A DNA stretch of 64,000 nt, from contig NEVA01000007.1 of the NCBI GenBank assembly GCA_002304445.1, positions 1 through 64,000 on the forward strand, in the 5' to 3' direction. The notes beneath the pieces are model-generated. The model was not told where the DNA came from and searched no databases. It saw only the letters and a program-made list of their open reading frames with translations. This document shows positions 40,744 through 49,676 of the stretch, one piece after another; position 1 is the first letter of the stretch; each line of letters starts with the position of its first letter. The position numbers and the translations under genes are program-made. Source of the DNA: Opitutia bacterium Tous-C4FEB. GTDB taxonomy: Bacteria; Verrucomicrobiota; Verrucomicrobiia; Opitutales; Opitutaceae.

Positions 40744-42212
40744 CTTTTCTCAGTTGCGTCCGTCAAGTTCTGCAAAAGTGGATCGGTGGTAAGAGGGTTT
40801 GGTGAGATAAAAAGATTTATGGGGAGGATTTAAGGGAGGGGGCGAAGCCACCTCCCTTTCGTGGATTGAGCGGAGGGTGGCAGGGAGGCGGTCAGCCTCC
40901 CGCCGTTCAGGCGGCTTTGGGCTGAGGCGGGCGTTTGAGATGTTCCCGGAGCAGGTCCATGTTGAGGTAGCGGTTTTCGTCGACCCACTCTTCGTGGGTC
41001 TCGACGGCGAGGGCTTGGACGAGCCGTAGGCAGCTGGCCTCGTCGGGGAAGATGCGCACCAGCAGGGTGCGGCGCTTGATCTCCTGGTTGAGCCGTTCGA
41101 GCAGATTGGTCGACTTGAGGTGTTTGTGATGCGCCCGCGGGAGCCGGTAGAAGGCGAAGGTCTCGTCGATGTTCGCCTCGACCCACGCGCATAGTTTCGG
41201 GTGTTTGTCCTGCCAGCGGGCGAGCCACGCGGCCAGATCGCGGCGGGCTTCCTCCGCGTCGTGACGGTCGTAGATCCAGCGCAGTTCGACCAAGCAATCA
41301 TCCGCCTGCTTGCGCGGCAGGTAGTCGAGCGCATTGCGCAGGAAGTGGACATAGCAACGCTGCCAGTATGCTTCGGGCAGCGCCTCCATGATCGCCCGTT
41401 TGAGTCCGGCGTGATCGTCGCTGACCGCGAGCTGCACGCCGTGCAGGCCTCGTTCCTTCAGTCGCAACAGGTGCGCTTTCCAACTGCTCGCGCTCTCCCG
41501 ACCGGCGAGCTCCACGGCCAGCACATGCCGCCGGCCGTCCCAACCGATACCCAGCGTGATCAGCACCGCGCGGCTTTGGCCGACGCCGTTTTCCCTGACC
41601 CGTTCGTAACGCGCATCAAGGATGATATACGGATACGGTTCCTCCAATCGGCGCGACATGAAGCGCCGCAGTTCCTCGTCCATCTTCACGTTCAGTTCGC
41701 TGATGGCACTGGCACTGAACTCGTGGCCGCACAGTTCCTCGGTGATCGTCTTCACCCGCCGCGTCGACACGCCCTGCACATACATCTGCATCAAGGCCGC
41801 CACGAGCGCCTTCTCGCTGCGCTGATACCGGGCGAACAACTCGGTCGAAAACCGGCCCTGCCGGTCCTGCGGCACGCGCAGTTCCAGTTTGCCGACTCGG
41901 GTCACCAGCGTCCGCGGATAATGGCCGCTACGGTAGCCGAGTCGTCCGCTCGTCCGCTCGTTTTTACCGGCCCGCAGGGCTTCGTCCATCTCTGCTTCCA
42001 GCACCTCCTGTAGCAGCGTTTGCAGCAGGCTCTTCATCGCGTCGTCTTCGGTCAGCATCCGCATCAGGTCTTGTTTCGTTACTTGGATCGTCTCATCGTT
42101 CCGCTTTGGGCGGGTCATGGTATTCCTTTCGTTGGTGGTTTTTGGCTTTAGCACCAAACCACTTACCATGATCCGCCTTTTTGCTGAACTCTCCGGACAC
42201 TACCCTTTTCTC
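40744..42212 (-). mobile_element. IS256-family insertion sequence with 8-bp target duplication
   Basis: The element spans 40752-42204 (1453 bases) and is flanked by an exact direct repeat CTTTTCTC (40744-40751 and 42205-42212), the 8-bp target duplication expected for IS256. The ends are imperfect inverted repeats: AGTTGCGTCCGTCAAGTTCT on one side and GGTAGTGTCCGGAGAGTTCA on the other, both leading into GCAAAA. A complete transposase gene is inside. It landed in the gap between the oxidoreductase gene and the flagellar cluster, without breaking a recognised gene. Confidence 0.9.
40907..42118 (-). CDS. IS256-family (Mutator-type) transposase
   Basis: A 403-aa transposase. The N-terminal region (MTRPKRNDETIQVTKQDLMR) leads to ELRVPQDRQGRFSTELF, a hallmark of IS256. 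The DDE residues are in YIILDARYERVREN, AVSDDHAGLK and the later NLLERLNQEIKRRT. The CxxH-like pair CYVHFLRN is also present. The start was chosen because AAAGGAA lies 6 bases upstream; an in-frame ATG 51 bases earlier lacks a ribosome site. The gene is intact. Confidence 0.92.
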   Translation of the reverse strand: MTRPKRNDETIQVTKQDLMRMLTEDDAMKSLLQTLLQEVLEAEMDEALRAGKNERTSGRLGYRSGHYPRTLVTRVGKLELRVPQDRQGRFSTELFARYQRSEKALVAALMQMYVQGVSTRRVKTITEELCGHEFSASAISELNVKMDEELRRFMSRRLEEPYPYIILDARYERVRENGVGQSRAVLITLGIGWDGRRHVLAVELAGRESASSWKAHLLRLKERGLHGVQLAVSDDHAGLKRAIMEALPEAYWQRCYVHFLRNALDYLPRKQADDCLVELRWIYDRHDAEEARRDLAAWLARWQDKHPKLCAWVEANIDETFAFYRLPRAHHKHLKSTNLLERLNQEIKRRTLLVRIFPDEASCLRLVQALAVETHEEWVDENRYLNMDLLREHLKRPPQPKAA

Positions 42213-45437: not shown

Positions 45438-46220
45438 CTATTTATTTTGATTCCGTTCAATAAAGCTCCGGAGCGCCAAGATCGCTTGAGTGTGGATCTG
45501 ACTGATCCGGGCTTCCGTCAAATCCATCGCCTCGGCAATTTCAGCGAGCCGCAGCCCTTCAAAATGGTACAACGCCAGAACTTGTCGCTGCGCCTCAGGC
45601 AGCAGTTCAATCCGGTCGGCGACCAAACGCCATAATTCAGCCCGCTCTAAGCCGGCGGAGGCTGGCTCAAGATTTTCGTCGGCGATCGTCTCGTGCAGCT
45701 TCGATCCATCGCCGTCGTCATAGGCTGACGCATCGATGTTAATGAAGGTGACCGGGCTCGATTCCTGCAACCACTCATCGTACTCAGCAGGGGTGAGTTG
45801 CAGTTGACGCTGAATCTCCTCGGCCGTCGCCGCGCGTTGGTGCTTCTGCTCCAGCTCGGCGATTGCGTCCTTTATTTTGCGTGCCTTTGCCCGGGTGCGA
45901 CGGGGACACCAATCCAAGCGCCTTAGTTCATCAAGAATCGCTCCGCGAATTTTAGTGTACGCGTAACCGGCAAAAGTCCGGCCCTCCTGCGGAATGTACC
46001 GTTGCGCCGCCGCAATCAAACCGATCACCCCCATGGAGTGAAGATCATCCGCATCGATATGCGGGGGTAGGCTCAGCTTGATCCGACCGACGACTTGACG
46101 CACCAACGGTAAGTGCTCCTCGACTAAAGCGGTCGAAGCACCAGTTGTTTGTTGGTACGTTTTATACGCCAAAGGCGAAATCGGCGGTGGAGGCGTATCA
46201 GATGATGGAGTAGATTCCAT
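45438..46220 (-). CDS. fliA: Flagellar RNA polymerase sigma-28 factor
   Basis: A 260-aa sigma factor with regions 2-4: HLPLVRQVVGRIKLSLPPHI, then DADDLHSMGVIGLIAAAQRY and RTFAGYAYTKIRGAILDELR, typical of FliA/WhiG. Region 4 ends with LRLAEIAEAMDLTEARISQI. It directs RNA polymerase to late flagellar genes. It lies 8 bases before motA in a run of coupled genes; in many bacteria FlhF-FlhG-FliA are consecutive, but here a small membrane protein takes the FlhG position. No anti-sigma FlgM is seen in the window. Confidence 0.9.
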   Translation of the reverse strand: MESTPSSDTPPPPISPLAYKTYQQTTGASTALVEEHLPLVRQVVGRIKLSLPPHIDADDLHSMGVIGLIAAAQRYIPQEGRTFAGYAYTKIRGAILDELRRLDWCPRRTRAKARKIKDAIAELEQKHQRAATAEEIQRQLQLTPAEYDEWLQESSPVTFINIDASAYDDGDGSKLHETIADENLEPASAGLERAELWRLVADRIELLPEAQRQVLALYHFEGLRLAEIAEAMDLTEARISQIHTQAILALRSFIERNQNK

Positions 46221-46247: not shown

Positions 46248-46514
46248 TCATTTCTTGGCTTTGGCGACCGCCGTTTCGCCCTTTTTTTGACGATTGGCTT
46301 TTGCAGCGGCGTCGGCCGCCGCGCGTTTCACCGCAACGGTAATGCGCATCGCATCCAAAACGTGATTCCAAAACCACTGACCAGCAAGTCCGCCCACAAC
46401 GGCGGCGATACAAGCATCGCGCACGACCAAAGCAAAAGTCCGATCGGCCCAGAGGCCGGCGGTGAAGACCAGCGTGAAGAAAACAAAACCGAAGACCAAA
46501 AATATATAACGCAT
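46248..46514 (-). CDS. Small two-helix membrane protein between flhF-like and fliA
   Basis: An 88-aa protein of unknown family. A first membrane segment (YIFLVFGFVFFTLVFTAGLW) is followed by a second hydrophobic stretch (ACIAAVVGGLAGQWFWNHVL) and a very basic Lys/Ala tail (RQKKGETAVAKAKK). The start lies 5 bases after the flhF-like stop and the stop 27 bases before fliA, within the flagellar run. It sits where flhG normally lies. Function unknown. Confidence 0.6.
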   Translation of the reverse strand: MRYIFLVFGFVFFTLVFTAGLWADRTFALVVRDACIAAVVGGLAGQWFWNHVLDAMRITVAVKRAAADAAAKANRQKKGETAVAKAKK

Positions 46515-46519
46515 ACGAG

Positions 46520-47548
46520 TCAGCTTTTACCCAAAGTTTTTTGGACCAAGAAATCGAGCGGATCAGATCCGATGGGGCCAAGCAAATTGCCGTCATGCGA
46601 GAAGAAAAGAGGACGCATCTCCCCCTCGAGCAATATTTCCCAAAGTTTACCGACGTCTTTTGCTTCGTCGAGGTGCGTAAGCACCACGTGGGTGGCCCCG
46701 AGGGCACGCCCCGATTTCAAGCCAGCCCGGAGGCTTTCGGTTTCATAAGCCGCATTGAGCACGAGCACCCGCGTCTCGATCGCTTGTTGCTTCAACAAAT
46801 CGGCTAACAGGGGCATTTCGTCGCCCGCGGCCGCACCGAAGCAGGGTACATCCCAATACACCCGAGCGCCCTCATCACTTAACCGCAAATCCGGAGTATG
46901 ATGGGTTAGTCTCACACCCACCGCATCGCAAAAGACTTCCAACTCGAGGCAGGGATTGGGCCGGCTAAATTCCACGTGCTGCACCCGACACTTCGTGCCC
47001 TGCTGGAACACTTCCCATGTCAGCCATTGCCCAAGCGCCAATGATTTATCGGCCTGCGAACTACTGATAAAAACTACCCGCCGACTAAGCGGCACCACTG
47101 GAAACGCCCCAACCAATTGGCGCAATTCACGCACAAACTCCGCCAGCGCATCCCCTAAAGGTTTATCGCCCGAGATCGACCACCGCCGCTCCGTTTCGAC
47201 TCGCCAAAGTAGCGATTCTGAAAATCCCGCCGTCCTCAACGCGGTTCGCAAGTCCACGGGCCGACTCCCGCGCGCCAACCCTGCCGCATACGTAGAATTC
47301 AACACCCCGGGCACCGGAGGCGCCATCACTGGCTCCAGAACCGATTCGGGCGCCGCAAGCTCGGCGACGACCTCCAGTTTGGCCCCACCGAAAATACGTT
47401 TAATGAAATTCTGCCGCACGGGCCGCACCGAAAGCACGCGCGCCTCCGGCCCTAACTGCGCTTTGAGCACCGATAGGGCCTCGTTCACGGAGCGCACAAT
47501 GAACCGGTAGGTGCCCGGCGCTGGAGATTTAGGAGCAGATGAAGCCAT
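46520..47548 (-). CDS. FlhF-like protein with degenerate GTPase motifs
   Basis: A 342-aa protein whose N-terminal region matches FlhF (TYRFIVRSVNEALSVLKAQL followed by GPEARVLSV). Where FlhF has its SRP-GTPase P-loop (GxTGxGKTTT), this protein reads VVFISSSQADKSLALG. The G3 DTAG is replaced by YWDVPCFG. The G4-like element survives as LTHLDEAKDVGKL. FlhF sets the number and place of flagella. Here nucleotide binding looks lost or altered, so it may act as a scaffold. Position directly after flhA supports the family assignment. The start at 47548 leaves 4 bases after the flhA stop. Confidence 0.75.
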   Translation of the reverse strand: MASSAPKSPAPGTYRFIVRSVNEALSVLKAQLGPEARVLSVRPVRQNFIKRIFGGAKLEVVAELAAPESVLEPVMAPPVPGVLNSTYAAGLARGSRPVDLRTALRTAGFSESLLWRVETERRWSISGDKPLGDALAEFVRELRQLVGAFPVVPLSRRVVFISSSQADKSLALGQWLTWEVFQQGTKCRVQHVEFSRPNPCLELEVFCDAVGVRLTHHTPDLRLSDEGARVYWDVPCFGAAAGDEMPLLADLLKQQAIETRVLVLNAAYETESLRAGLKSGRALGATHVVLTHLDEAKDVGKLWEILLEGEMRPLFFSHDGNLLGPIGSDPLDFLVQKTLGKS

Positions 47549-47552
47549 CTGA

Positions 47553-49676
47553 TTAAGCCGCTGAGCGGGCCGGCTCAAGCGGAGCCGAAATTATACCGGC
47601 ATTCTCGATCTGGTAAGTCCCTGGTATTTCTTGAAAAGACACGACCGTCAGCCGCGGGAACGTCGACTCGAGAAAACGCCGTAACGCCAACCGCAACTCG
47701 GCGCCCACCGCAATGCACGGCGCGCTCCCGCCGGCGGCAAATTCCGCCTGCTTGGAATTGATCGCTTGGAGTAAATGGGCGCTCAACGTCGGATCGAGTG
47801 CCAGACCGAAGTCTGCCGCCGTCCGATGAATTTTTGCCACCAGCTCTTTTTCTAGGCGCAAATCGAGCGTCAAAGCCCGCACTGTGCCCGGAGCCGATTC
47901 CAGCAACGGCACAAAATAGGGCCCGAGCCGTCGACGCACCAATTCGCTCAAATCGTCGGGATTCTTCGTCAAGGCCGCGAAATCGGCGATCCCTTCCAAG
48001 ATCAACGGCAGATTGAGGATCGGCACACTTTCGCGGAGTAAATTCTGCAACACTCGCTGGATGATACCGAGATTGACCAAGTCTGGCAGCAACTCGCTGA
48101 CCAGCGCCGGATGCGATTGCTTCACATGATCGATCAACGCCTGCACATCCTGCCGCCCAAGCAACACATGAGCGTTGGACTTCAAAATTTCGGATAGATG
48201 CGTAACGATGATCGAGGCGCAATCGACCACGGAATAACCGTTGATCTCCGCATTCTTCTTTTCGCCCTCTTCGATCCACACGGCCGCCAGACCAAAGACC
48301 GGCTCTTGGCACGCGACGCCGCGCAATTGCACGCGACTGCCCGAGACATTCATCGCCATCCAACGCCCCATCATGAGCGAACCACGGCCCACGATGCGGC
48401 CGCGCAAAAGAAAACGGTACTCGCCGCTCGCAAGCTCGAGATTGTCGCGCACCGCTACCTGCGGCACAATGATCCCCAGTTCGCGGGCCAAAGTTTTACG
48501 CACGCCGGTGATGCGCCCAGGTAAATCACCGCCTTGTTTCTGATCCGCTAGGCCGACCAGACCGAAACCAACTTCAACCGCAAAAACGTCGACGTCGATC
48601 AATCGCCGCACTTCTTCAACCGAGCCGCTCTTCGGCGGCGCGGCTTCCTTATCCTTGGCCTTCTCGGCGGCGGTCTTAGCGACCGGTTCAGCCTCGGGCT
48701 GAACGGCTGGAAGTTTAAAGCCGATGTAGAGAAAAAATCCCCCCATCAATCCAAGCGGCAACAAGGGCAAGCCAGGCATAAAGCCCATGAGTAACATCAC
48801 CGCGCCGACCATCTTCAACGCAACCGGATATCGCACCAGTTGGCCGCCGACCTGTTGACCCAGGTCGCCGTTATCCGCCGCCCGGGTGACCAGCAAACCC
48901 GCGGCCACTGAAATTACCAGCGCTGGAATCTGCGTTACCAGACCATCACCGATCGACAGTAGCGTAAATTTTTCCAACGACTCCATCAGCGACATATCCA
49001 TCTGTAACACGCCGATCATAAAGCCGCCCAATACATTGACCAAAGTGATCAAAATACCCGCGATTGCCTCACCGCGCACAAACTTAGACGAACCGTCCAT
49101 CGCGCCATAAAAATCCGCTTCACGTTGCAATTTAAGCCGCCGGGCGGAGGCCGTGGGCTCATCGATCGCCCCGGCGTTCAACTCCGCGTCGATCGCCATC
49201 TGTTTACCCGGCAAGGCATCCAAGGTAAACCTCGCCGATACCTCCGCGATCCGGCCCGCGCCTTTGGTGATTACGACAAAATTGATCACGACCAAGATCA
49301 CGAATACCACGAATCCGACCACGTAATTACCCTGAATCACGATCTTACCGAACGCCTCAATAATGTGGCCAGCCTCACCCTGCGTCAGCACCAGGCGCGT
49401 CGAACAAATGTTTAGCGCCAAGCGGAAAAGCGTCAGACCTAACAACACGGTCGGAAACGCCGAAAATTCTACCGGTTGGCGGACATAAATCACCACCAGC
49501 ATGATCAACAACGACGAAGCGATACTGAAGGACAGCAACACATCTAGGACCATCGGCGGCACCGGCAGCACCAGCAGTATGATCGTGCCAAACAAGGCGA
49601 ACGCGACTAATAGATCAGCCCGGCCTAAAAGTTGGCGGGAAAACGTCGTCGCGGAAACTGGAACAGCGGCAGGCAT
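47553..49676 (-). CDS. flhA: Flagellar export gate protein FlhA
   Basis: A 707-aa protein. The N-terminal half has eight hydrophobic segments beginning LLVAFALFGTIILLVLPVPP, with the conserved FHIPEP-family region AEVSARFTLDALPGKQMAID. A cytoplasmic linker and the C-terminal four-subdomain receptor for export chaperones follow. It is the largest component of the type III export gate and uses the proton motive force. The order flhB-flhA-flhF-like is the usual one; flhB ends 9 bases upstream. Length is normal. Confidence 0.95.
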   Translation of the reverse strand: MPAAVPVSATTFSRQLLGRADLLVAFALFGTIILLVLPVPPMVLDVLLSFSIASSLLIMLVVIYVRQPVEFSAFPTVLLGLTLFRLALNICSTRLVLTQGEAGHIIEAFGKIVIQGNYVVGFVVFVILVVINFVVITKGAGRIAEVSARFTLDALPGKQMAIDAELNAGAIDEPTASARRLKLQREADFYGAMDGSSKFVRGEAIAGILITLVNVLGGFMIGVLQMDMSLMESLEKFTLLSIGDGLVTQIPALVISVAAGLLVTRAADNGDLGQQVGGQLVRYPVALKMVGAVMLLMGFMPGLPLLPLGLMGGFFLYIGFKLPAVQPEAEPVAKTAAEKAKDKEAAPPKSGSVEEVRRLIDVDVFAVEVGFGLVGLADQKQGGDLPGRITGVRKTLARELGIIVPQVAVRDNLELASGEYRFLLRGRIVGRGSLMMGRWMAMNVSGSRVQLRGVACQEPVFGLAAVWIEEGEKKNAEINGYSVVDCASIIVTHLSEILKSNAHVLLGRQDVQALIDHVKQSHPALVSELLPDLVNLGIIQRVLQNLLRESVPILNLPLILEGIADFAALTKNPDDLSELVRRRLGPYFVPLLESAPGTVRALTLDLRLEKELVAKIHRTAADFGLALDPTLSAHLLQAINSKQAEFAAGGSAPCIAVGAELRLALRRFLESTFPRLTVVSFQEIPGTYQIENAGIISAPLEPARSAA

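Follow-up and report, generated by a model that had tools for sequence, protein, structure and literature searches.

At the level of sequence, the window (the whole stretch of DNA that was analyzed, 64,000 nucleotides long) encodes an FlhF orthologue with an eroded GTPase signature, in a bacterial class in which no FlhG was found beside FlhF, and the lineage of the window is the extreme case. FlhF is the third SRP-type GTPase and elsewhere serves as a GTP switch that positions the flagellum; FlhG activates its GTPase. We consider it moderately probable that the protein is a functional FlhF whose GTP switch has been dismantled and that it acts as a nucleotide-independent tether between FliG and the site of flagellar placement. 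The gene, its domains, and its neighbors are as follows.

47553–49676, minus strand: flhA, matching TIGR01398 above cut-off
46520–47548, minus strand: flhF, 342 aa, a divergent pseudo-GTPase-like FlhF by profile, alignment, model, and fold
47351–47521, minus strand: N-terminal B domain (aa 10–66), from the TIGR03499 match, a profile alignment starting at aa 16, and the model
46529–47257, minus strand: NG domain (aa 98–340) with SRP-GTPase fold, from VIA-align
47042–47065, minus strand: P-loop position (aa 162–169), SSSQADKS versus GxxGxGK[ST], from the alignment
46838–46852, minus strand: G3 position (aa 233–237), DVPCF versus DTPGR, from the alignment
46661–46681, minus strand: G4 position (aa 290–296), LTHLDEA, with Lys replaced by His and Asp kept, from the alignment
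46248–46514, minus strand: probable Type-1 FlgV, 88 aa, two hydrophobic segments, from position and pattern
45438–46220, minus strand: fliA (sigma-28), matching TIGR02479 above cut-off

The order of genes on the minus strand is flhA, flhF, the 88-aa ORF, and fliA, with flhF running from an ATG at 47548, 4 nt past the end of flhA, to a stop at 46520. We take the two ORFs after fliA to be motA and motB, and a 420-aa ORF at 40907–42169, just behind the flagellar genes, resembles a transposase of the mutator family. The position beside flhA in a flagellar operon is common among the homologues: at 100 of 117 scored loci, a co-directional flhA precedes flhF within 600 nt (elsewhere in the locus at 4, not found at 13), and fliA lies within 800 nt downstream of flhF at 106 (not found at 11). 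The preliminary description had called the gene an FlhF with degenerate GTP-binding loops that keeps the N-terminal signature and genome position of its family. Each of these points holds: TIGR03499, the FlhF model, matches aa 15–68 (E 2.2e-5), both neighbors exceed the cut-offs for FlhA and FliA, and profile, synteny, and SRP-GTPase fold all agree with a degenerate FlhF.

Because of the profile match and the best PDB hit of its family, and because of its synteny, we assign the gene as an flhF orthologue. Searches of Pfam and the PDB with the lone window protein returned nothing significant for function, so that profiles were needed; in Pfam, no family matched at E 0.001, and PF00448 reached 11.1 bits over aa 255–306. 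The TIGR03499 match scores 24.6 bits and misses the NCBIfam equivalog cut-off of 174 bits, which just two of seven canonical FlhF proteins of the same phylum pass, the other five scoring 131–166 bits. The same model matches 57 of 59 family members at E values up to 0.001. When aligned to canonical FlhF with hhalign, the family profile covers 322 columns, including the B domain (probability 99.1, E 4.6e-19), and the alignment begins at aa 16 of the window protein. In a PDB search with this profile, Bacillus subtilis FlhF was the best match (3.7e-17) and Ffh the next (4.4e-10), with Shewanella putrefaciens FlhF level with Ffh. By profile, the family is closer to canonical FlhF than to FtsY or Ffh.

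The structure predicted by AlphaFold2 (59 rows; mean pLDDT 84.9, pTM 0.71) consists of an N-terminal part and a full SRP-type NG fold. The N-terminal part contains strands at aa 12–18, 37–43, and 58–64 and helices at aa 21–31 and 48–51, with block pLDDT values of 76–94 over aa 11–70; together with the TIGR03499 match and the profile alignment, the model gives the order of B domain followed by NG domain found in FlhF. In both Foldseek and VIA-align, the NG part groups with the SRP GTPases. The highest VIA-align Z score belongs to 5l3r_B, from an SRP54-FtsY complex (20.8), and FlhF chains rank second and third (8r9r, 20.7; 2px3, 20.6), tied with FtsY-type chains; by target-normalized TM-score, three FlhF chains are highest among the 50 matches listed (0.76, 0.74, and 0.73). 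This comparison bears mainly on the NG part and hardly covers the N-terminal part. The modeled fold alone does not tell FlhF from FtsY, and the sequence profiles separate them better.

Could the gene instead encode another SRP-type GTPase paralogue that moved into the flagellar operon and took on a new job? Such an origin would fit the tie between FlhF and FtsY by fold, the failure of the lone protein to match Pfam at E 0.001, and the shortness of its TIGR03499 match, which is confined to the N terminus. However, the best PDB match of the family profile is an FlhF, the synteny is that of flhF, and the full-length match to canonical FlhF includes the B domain, a part described as absent from Ffh and FtsY (PMC11236974). 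We therefore regard a relocated paralogue as very improbable.

A second, canonical FlhF, which the preliminary description had named as one of two observations that would speak against it, was sought with PF00448 and not found in the genome of Opitutia bacterium Tous-C4FEB itself (3.76 Mb in 39 contigs, 96% complete) or in five near relatives. The genome contains two full matches, in frames of 323 and 583 aa that we read from their lengths as FtsY and Ffh; a 1607-aa frame gives one further match, which at 24.6 bits exceeds the cut-off. Four of the near relatives likewise combine two full matches with weak ones, whereas in G126, which is 83% complete, a single full match is accompanied by a weak one.

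The window protein does not carry the G1–G4 signature of a working GTPase. In the profile alignment, SSSQADKS (aa 162–169) stands opposite GPTGVGKT, so that Gly4 and Gly6 of the P-loop are replaced by Gln165 and Asp167, with Lys168 and Ser169 in register. The G2 motif, the Gly and Arg of G3, and the Lys of G4 are also lost, and Asp233 and Asp294 complete the four residues of the catalytic set that remain in register. The preliminary description had held that the P-loop and G3 lack their key residues, which is correct for Gly4, Gly6, and the G3 Gly and Arg but not for Lys168, Ser169, and Asp233. It had also noted that a G4-like LTHLDEA remains; Asp294 is indeed kept, but the Lys has become His, as in nearly all class members.

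Of 150 genomes from the same GTDB family, 80 contain a homologue, and a profile built from 59 family members matched, at E 1e-6, in 107 of 372 genomes of the order and 53 of 236 genomes of the class, both of which samples include the family itself. In all, 126 sequences were aligned. The family supplied 78, of which 7 belong to the window lineage (the window protein included) and 71 do not; a further 40 come from different families within the order and class, and the remaining 8 are canonical FlhF proteins of the phylum. The family alignment excluded 12 of 89 loci as duplicates or fragments. The 40 sequences were picked by hand from the hits for spread of families; three of them (L180, L183, and L185) are matches with one internal TGA, for which the frame was taken up to its stop. 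The canonical set combined the seven best TIGR03499 matches, all from other families, with a copy in the family genome G070 that came to light through the FlhG profile.

In the window lineage, the altered loop is a shared feature. Gly4 is Gln in six of the seven sequences and His in one, and Gly6 is Asp in all; the P-loop Lys is present in all seven and the Ser in six (Ala in L040). The G3 Asp is likewise invariant, with its Gly replaced by Cys in six and Ser in one, and at G4 all seven have His and keep the Asp. Among 14 further loci of the lineage, some of which probably represent the same genome, 13 hold the altered loop (Gly4 as Gln, Pro, or His; Gly6 as Asp) and one, L042, is a fragment ending before it; Pro occurs at loci left out of the alignment (L009, L036, and L041). 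Because these 13 loci, 8 of them contigs of named MAGs, have the altered loop, it is not an assembly error.

The preliminary description had presented the protein as a single oddity, and this did not survive comparison with 118 homologues of the same class (78 from its own family, 40 from others). The G2 motif DT[FY]R and the G3 Arg are absent from all 118, and the G4 Lys position is His in 116 and Gln in 2. In the canonical set, by contrast, GxxGxGKT, DT[FY]R, and the G3 Arg are present in all eight and the G4 Lys in all seven that are readable. As far as the alignment indicates, the G3-Arg and G4-Lys changes are common to every aligned class member rather than special to the window protein, and the window lineage is the far end of a stepwise change across the class. 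The P-loop changes are more restricted. Its Lys is kept in 37 of the 40 order and class sequences (Ala in 2, Ser in 1; G4 is His in all 40), and in the rest of the family (71 sequences, the window lineage set aside) it is Arg in 48, Lys in 19, Cys in 3, and Thr in 1 (G4 His in 69, Gln in 2). Of these 111 class members, 110 have all three P-loop glycines, also when Arg has taken the place of Lys, the sole exception being L090, with Ser at Gly4; loss of both Gly4 and Gly6 is confined to the window lineage.

Two family members, L079 and L082, in which G4 has Gln for His (FTQLDE) and the P-loop Lys is replaced by Cys or Thr, represent a separate route of change. One order and class sequence, L169, contains a TK.DE-like string elsewhere in the protein.

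A quick-method tree of 104 of the 126 rows, from which the motif columns had been removed, requires five or more switches between Lys and non-Lys when the window lineage is counted as Lys, and it puts the window lineage inside a mostly Arg group. We considered that Lys168 was regained from an Arg ancestor, but do not claim this because a one-clade test fails to support the placement: a tree in which the other 41 rows were held together was 5.9 log units better (p-AU 0.63).

Is the gene still in use? A decaying remnant, whether a pseudogene or a gene that became nearly neutral once the placement of flagella no longer mattered, would account for the loss of motifs and for the general divergence of the flagellar genes in this lineage. 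However, six pairs within the window lineage give flhF dN/dS values of 0.064–0.131, with dS of 0.4–1.6 and the G domain included. The gene is under purifying selection and is therefore no pseudogene. Over the 15 codons of the P-loop segment, dN is 0–0.06 in four pairs, and in the same number of pairs compared by domain, the linker alone is consistently and clearly less constrained than the G domain. None of the window-lineage flhF rows from the family search has an internal stop, and in the genome that carries the window FliG_C is matched once and flagellin four times. These data make a remnant improbable in the extreme. The flhF values are near those of flgV (0.077–0.108, six pairs) and two to three times those of fliA (0.043–0.056, six pairs) and flhA (0.033–0.047, three pairs); motA gave 0.058–0.065 (two pairs, one saturated) and motB 0.045–0.089 (three pairs). 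Another idea was that relaxed selection on FlhF explains why the window lineage sits on a long stem. Since FliA has diverged too, as has FlhA where comparable, the stem divergence is not specific to FlhF.

The partner that stimulates the switch in other bacteria was not found. An FlhG profile detected no FlhG in the 41 FlhF-bearing class genomes tested, that of Tous-C4FEB included (best score 68 bits; 38 bits in the Tous-C4FEB genome, which is 96% complete). As a control, the profile scored 378–470 bits in all seven same-phylum genomes with canonical FlhF; six of these supplied the profile, and G364 (378 bits) is independent. No FlhG with the DQAxxLR motif was found in the Tous-C4FEB genome, where the best models of the four ParA-like ORFs are ParA (two), ApbC/Mrp, and TraL, all under cut-off. 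Across 150 family genomes, one clear FlhG was present, at 230 bits in G070, a 75%-complete MAG that is absent from the list of family genomes with family-type FlhF; in 54 further genomes that match at E 1e-10, no score exceeds 60 bits, and these matches are taken as ParA-type relatives. The FlhG profile also matched at none of 40 order and class flhF loci. FlhG with DQAxxLR adjoins canonical flhF at L093–L097, L099, and L129; the remaining canonical locus, L098, is cut at a contig end. As a 2025 review describes flhF and flhG as consistently encoded together, with flhG directly downstream (PMC12826062), the class departs from this rule. The pair at L129 (G070:C184), a canonical FlhF with FlhG, is unlike the rest of the family and may come from a foreign contig or a transfer.

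The 88-aa ORF that immediately follows flhF, at the usual site of flhG, is probably FlgV. No library model matched it, and it shares with Type-1 FlgV its two hydrophobic segments and its place between flhF and fliA; Type-1 FlgV is described as a small flagellar protein with two TM segments, encoded between flhF/flhG and sigma-28, in a family that includes PVC bacteria (PMC10802407). A FlgV-profile match lies close behind flhF at 32 of 40 order and class loci, two of them at only 12 and 14 bits. Although a TM2 Arg is described as conserved in Type-1 FlgV (PMC10802407), the presumed site is Gln or His in all six aligned window-lineage rows (the window copy reads GQWFW, with Gln); it is Arg in 56 of 67 other rows and Leu, Phe, or Met in six other family rows. 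We had considered this ORF as a replacement for FlhG and dropped the idea, as the published description of FlgV makes the ORF more likely to be that gene, the usual next one, with flhG simply missing (PMC10802407).

How might such an FlhF function? The window protein shares with FlhF of B. subtilis (2px0/2px3) and S. putrefaciens (8r9r) the order of B and NG domains, the SRP-GTPase fold, and the adjoining flhA, but has lost the G1 glycines, the G2 motif, the G3 Arg, and the G4 Lys; the FlhF half of the FlhF-FlhG switch is present and the FlhG half was not found. In Shewanella FlhF, FliG is described as bound by the first 44 residues, which begin the B domain and fold into three strands and one helix, whereas the NG domain is described as binding the pole protein HubP with GDP or GTP alike (PMC11236974). 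Going by sequence, the window protein keeps both the FliG-binding-type N-terminal part and the NG part. At the level of sequence, FlhF of the aligned class members lacks the G2 (DTxR), G3 (Arg), and G4 (Lys) signatures, its P-loop is mostly kept, and no FlhG was found; next, several lineages exchanged the P-loop Lys, and the window lineage lost the glycines of the loop. Since these glycines are lost, we infer that the window FlhF does not bind GTP: Gln165 and Asp167, placed in the loop that binds phosphate, would prevent canonical GTP·Mg binding and hence the GTP-dependent homodimer. The N-terminal domain would hold FliG, so that FliF-FliG assembles there, and the NG domain would dock on a placement partner. 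Elsewhere, FlhG-stimulated GTP hydrolysis brings about release or reset; here, something else would do so, or nothing at all. By analogy, the protein would be a static tether that has lost FlhG-driven release. The suggestion in the preliminary description that placement proceeds without a GTP-dependent dimer has become more likely because FlhG was not found in the Tous-C4FEB genome or the other tested FlhF-bearing class genomes, but the loss of GTP binding and dimerization is itself deduced from the loop residues.

Work on other FlhF proteins argues against a nucleotide-free tether. GTP dimerization of FlhF is called crucial in the review cited above (PMC12826062), P. aeruginosa FlhF is reported to bind FliG stably when in the GTP state, and FlhF localization in this species and in V. 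alginolyticus is described as requiring GTP binding (PMC12713375); a Vibrio FlhF with a GTPase-motif mutation is reported to lose polar localization and flagella (PMC6092412). It is possible, although rather unlikely, that the window FlhF still binds GTP, ATP, or a nucleotide-like ligand weakly and in an unusual way, without fast turnover. Residual binding of this kind is conceivable because Lys168, Ser169, Asp233, and Asp294 remain, and in the model the P-loop, of unchanged length, is still flanked by a strand (aa 157–163) and a helix (aa 168–182). Most class members, moreover, keep GxxGxGK[ST] or GxxGxGR[ST]. However, every window-lineage locus that reaches the loop has Gln, Pro, or His for Gly4 and Asp for Gly6, L040 has Ala for Ser169, and the G4 Lys and G3 Arg are gone. 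The earlier stages may still bind nucleotide, since 110 of 111 keep the P-loop glycines.

Extending the tether to the whole class is a more tentative proposal, and one that we hold with less than even confidence: all of its members may place flagella with an FlhF that does not cycle GTP and has no FlhG, as a static scaffold, with the intermediates (GKT, GRT, and no glycine loop) recording the order of dismantling. The share of FlhF's work that depends on GTP varies between species. These proteins form a natural FlhF series without FlhG, first with altered G2–G4, then without the P-loop Lys, and then without the P-loop glycines, in a gene under selection. They are ready-made test proteins, and whatever the end member still does is likely to be independent of GTP. 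Judging by titles and the starts of abstracts, we found no paper in the open-licence PMC literature with a degenerate FlhF as its subject.

Finally, at three class loci (L187, L188, and L189), Ala or Ser stands in place of the P-loop Lys, and neither flhA nor fliA was found in the vicinity of flhF. G454, a relative of G432, has FlhF and gave no FHIPEP match; G432 itself (order f81), whose genome is very small (1.1 Mb), has two FHIPEP (FlhA/SctV-type) genes on contigs other than that of its FlhF. The genomes of L187–L189 also have FlhA-type genes elsewhere, and flhF at L189 lies near an ORF that reads, by eye, as a flagellin.
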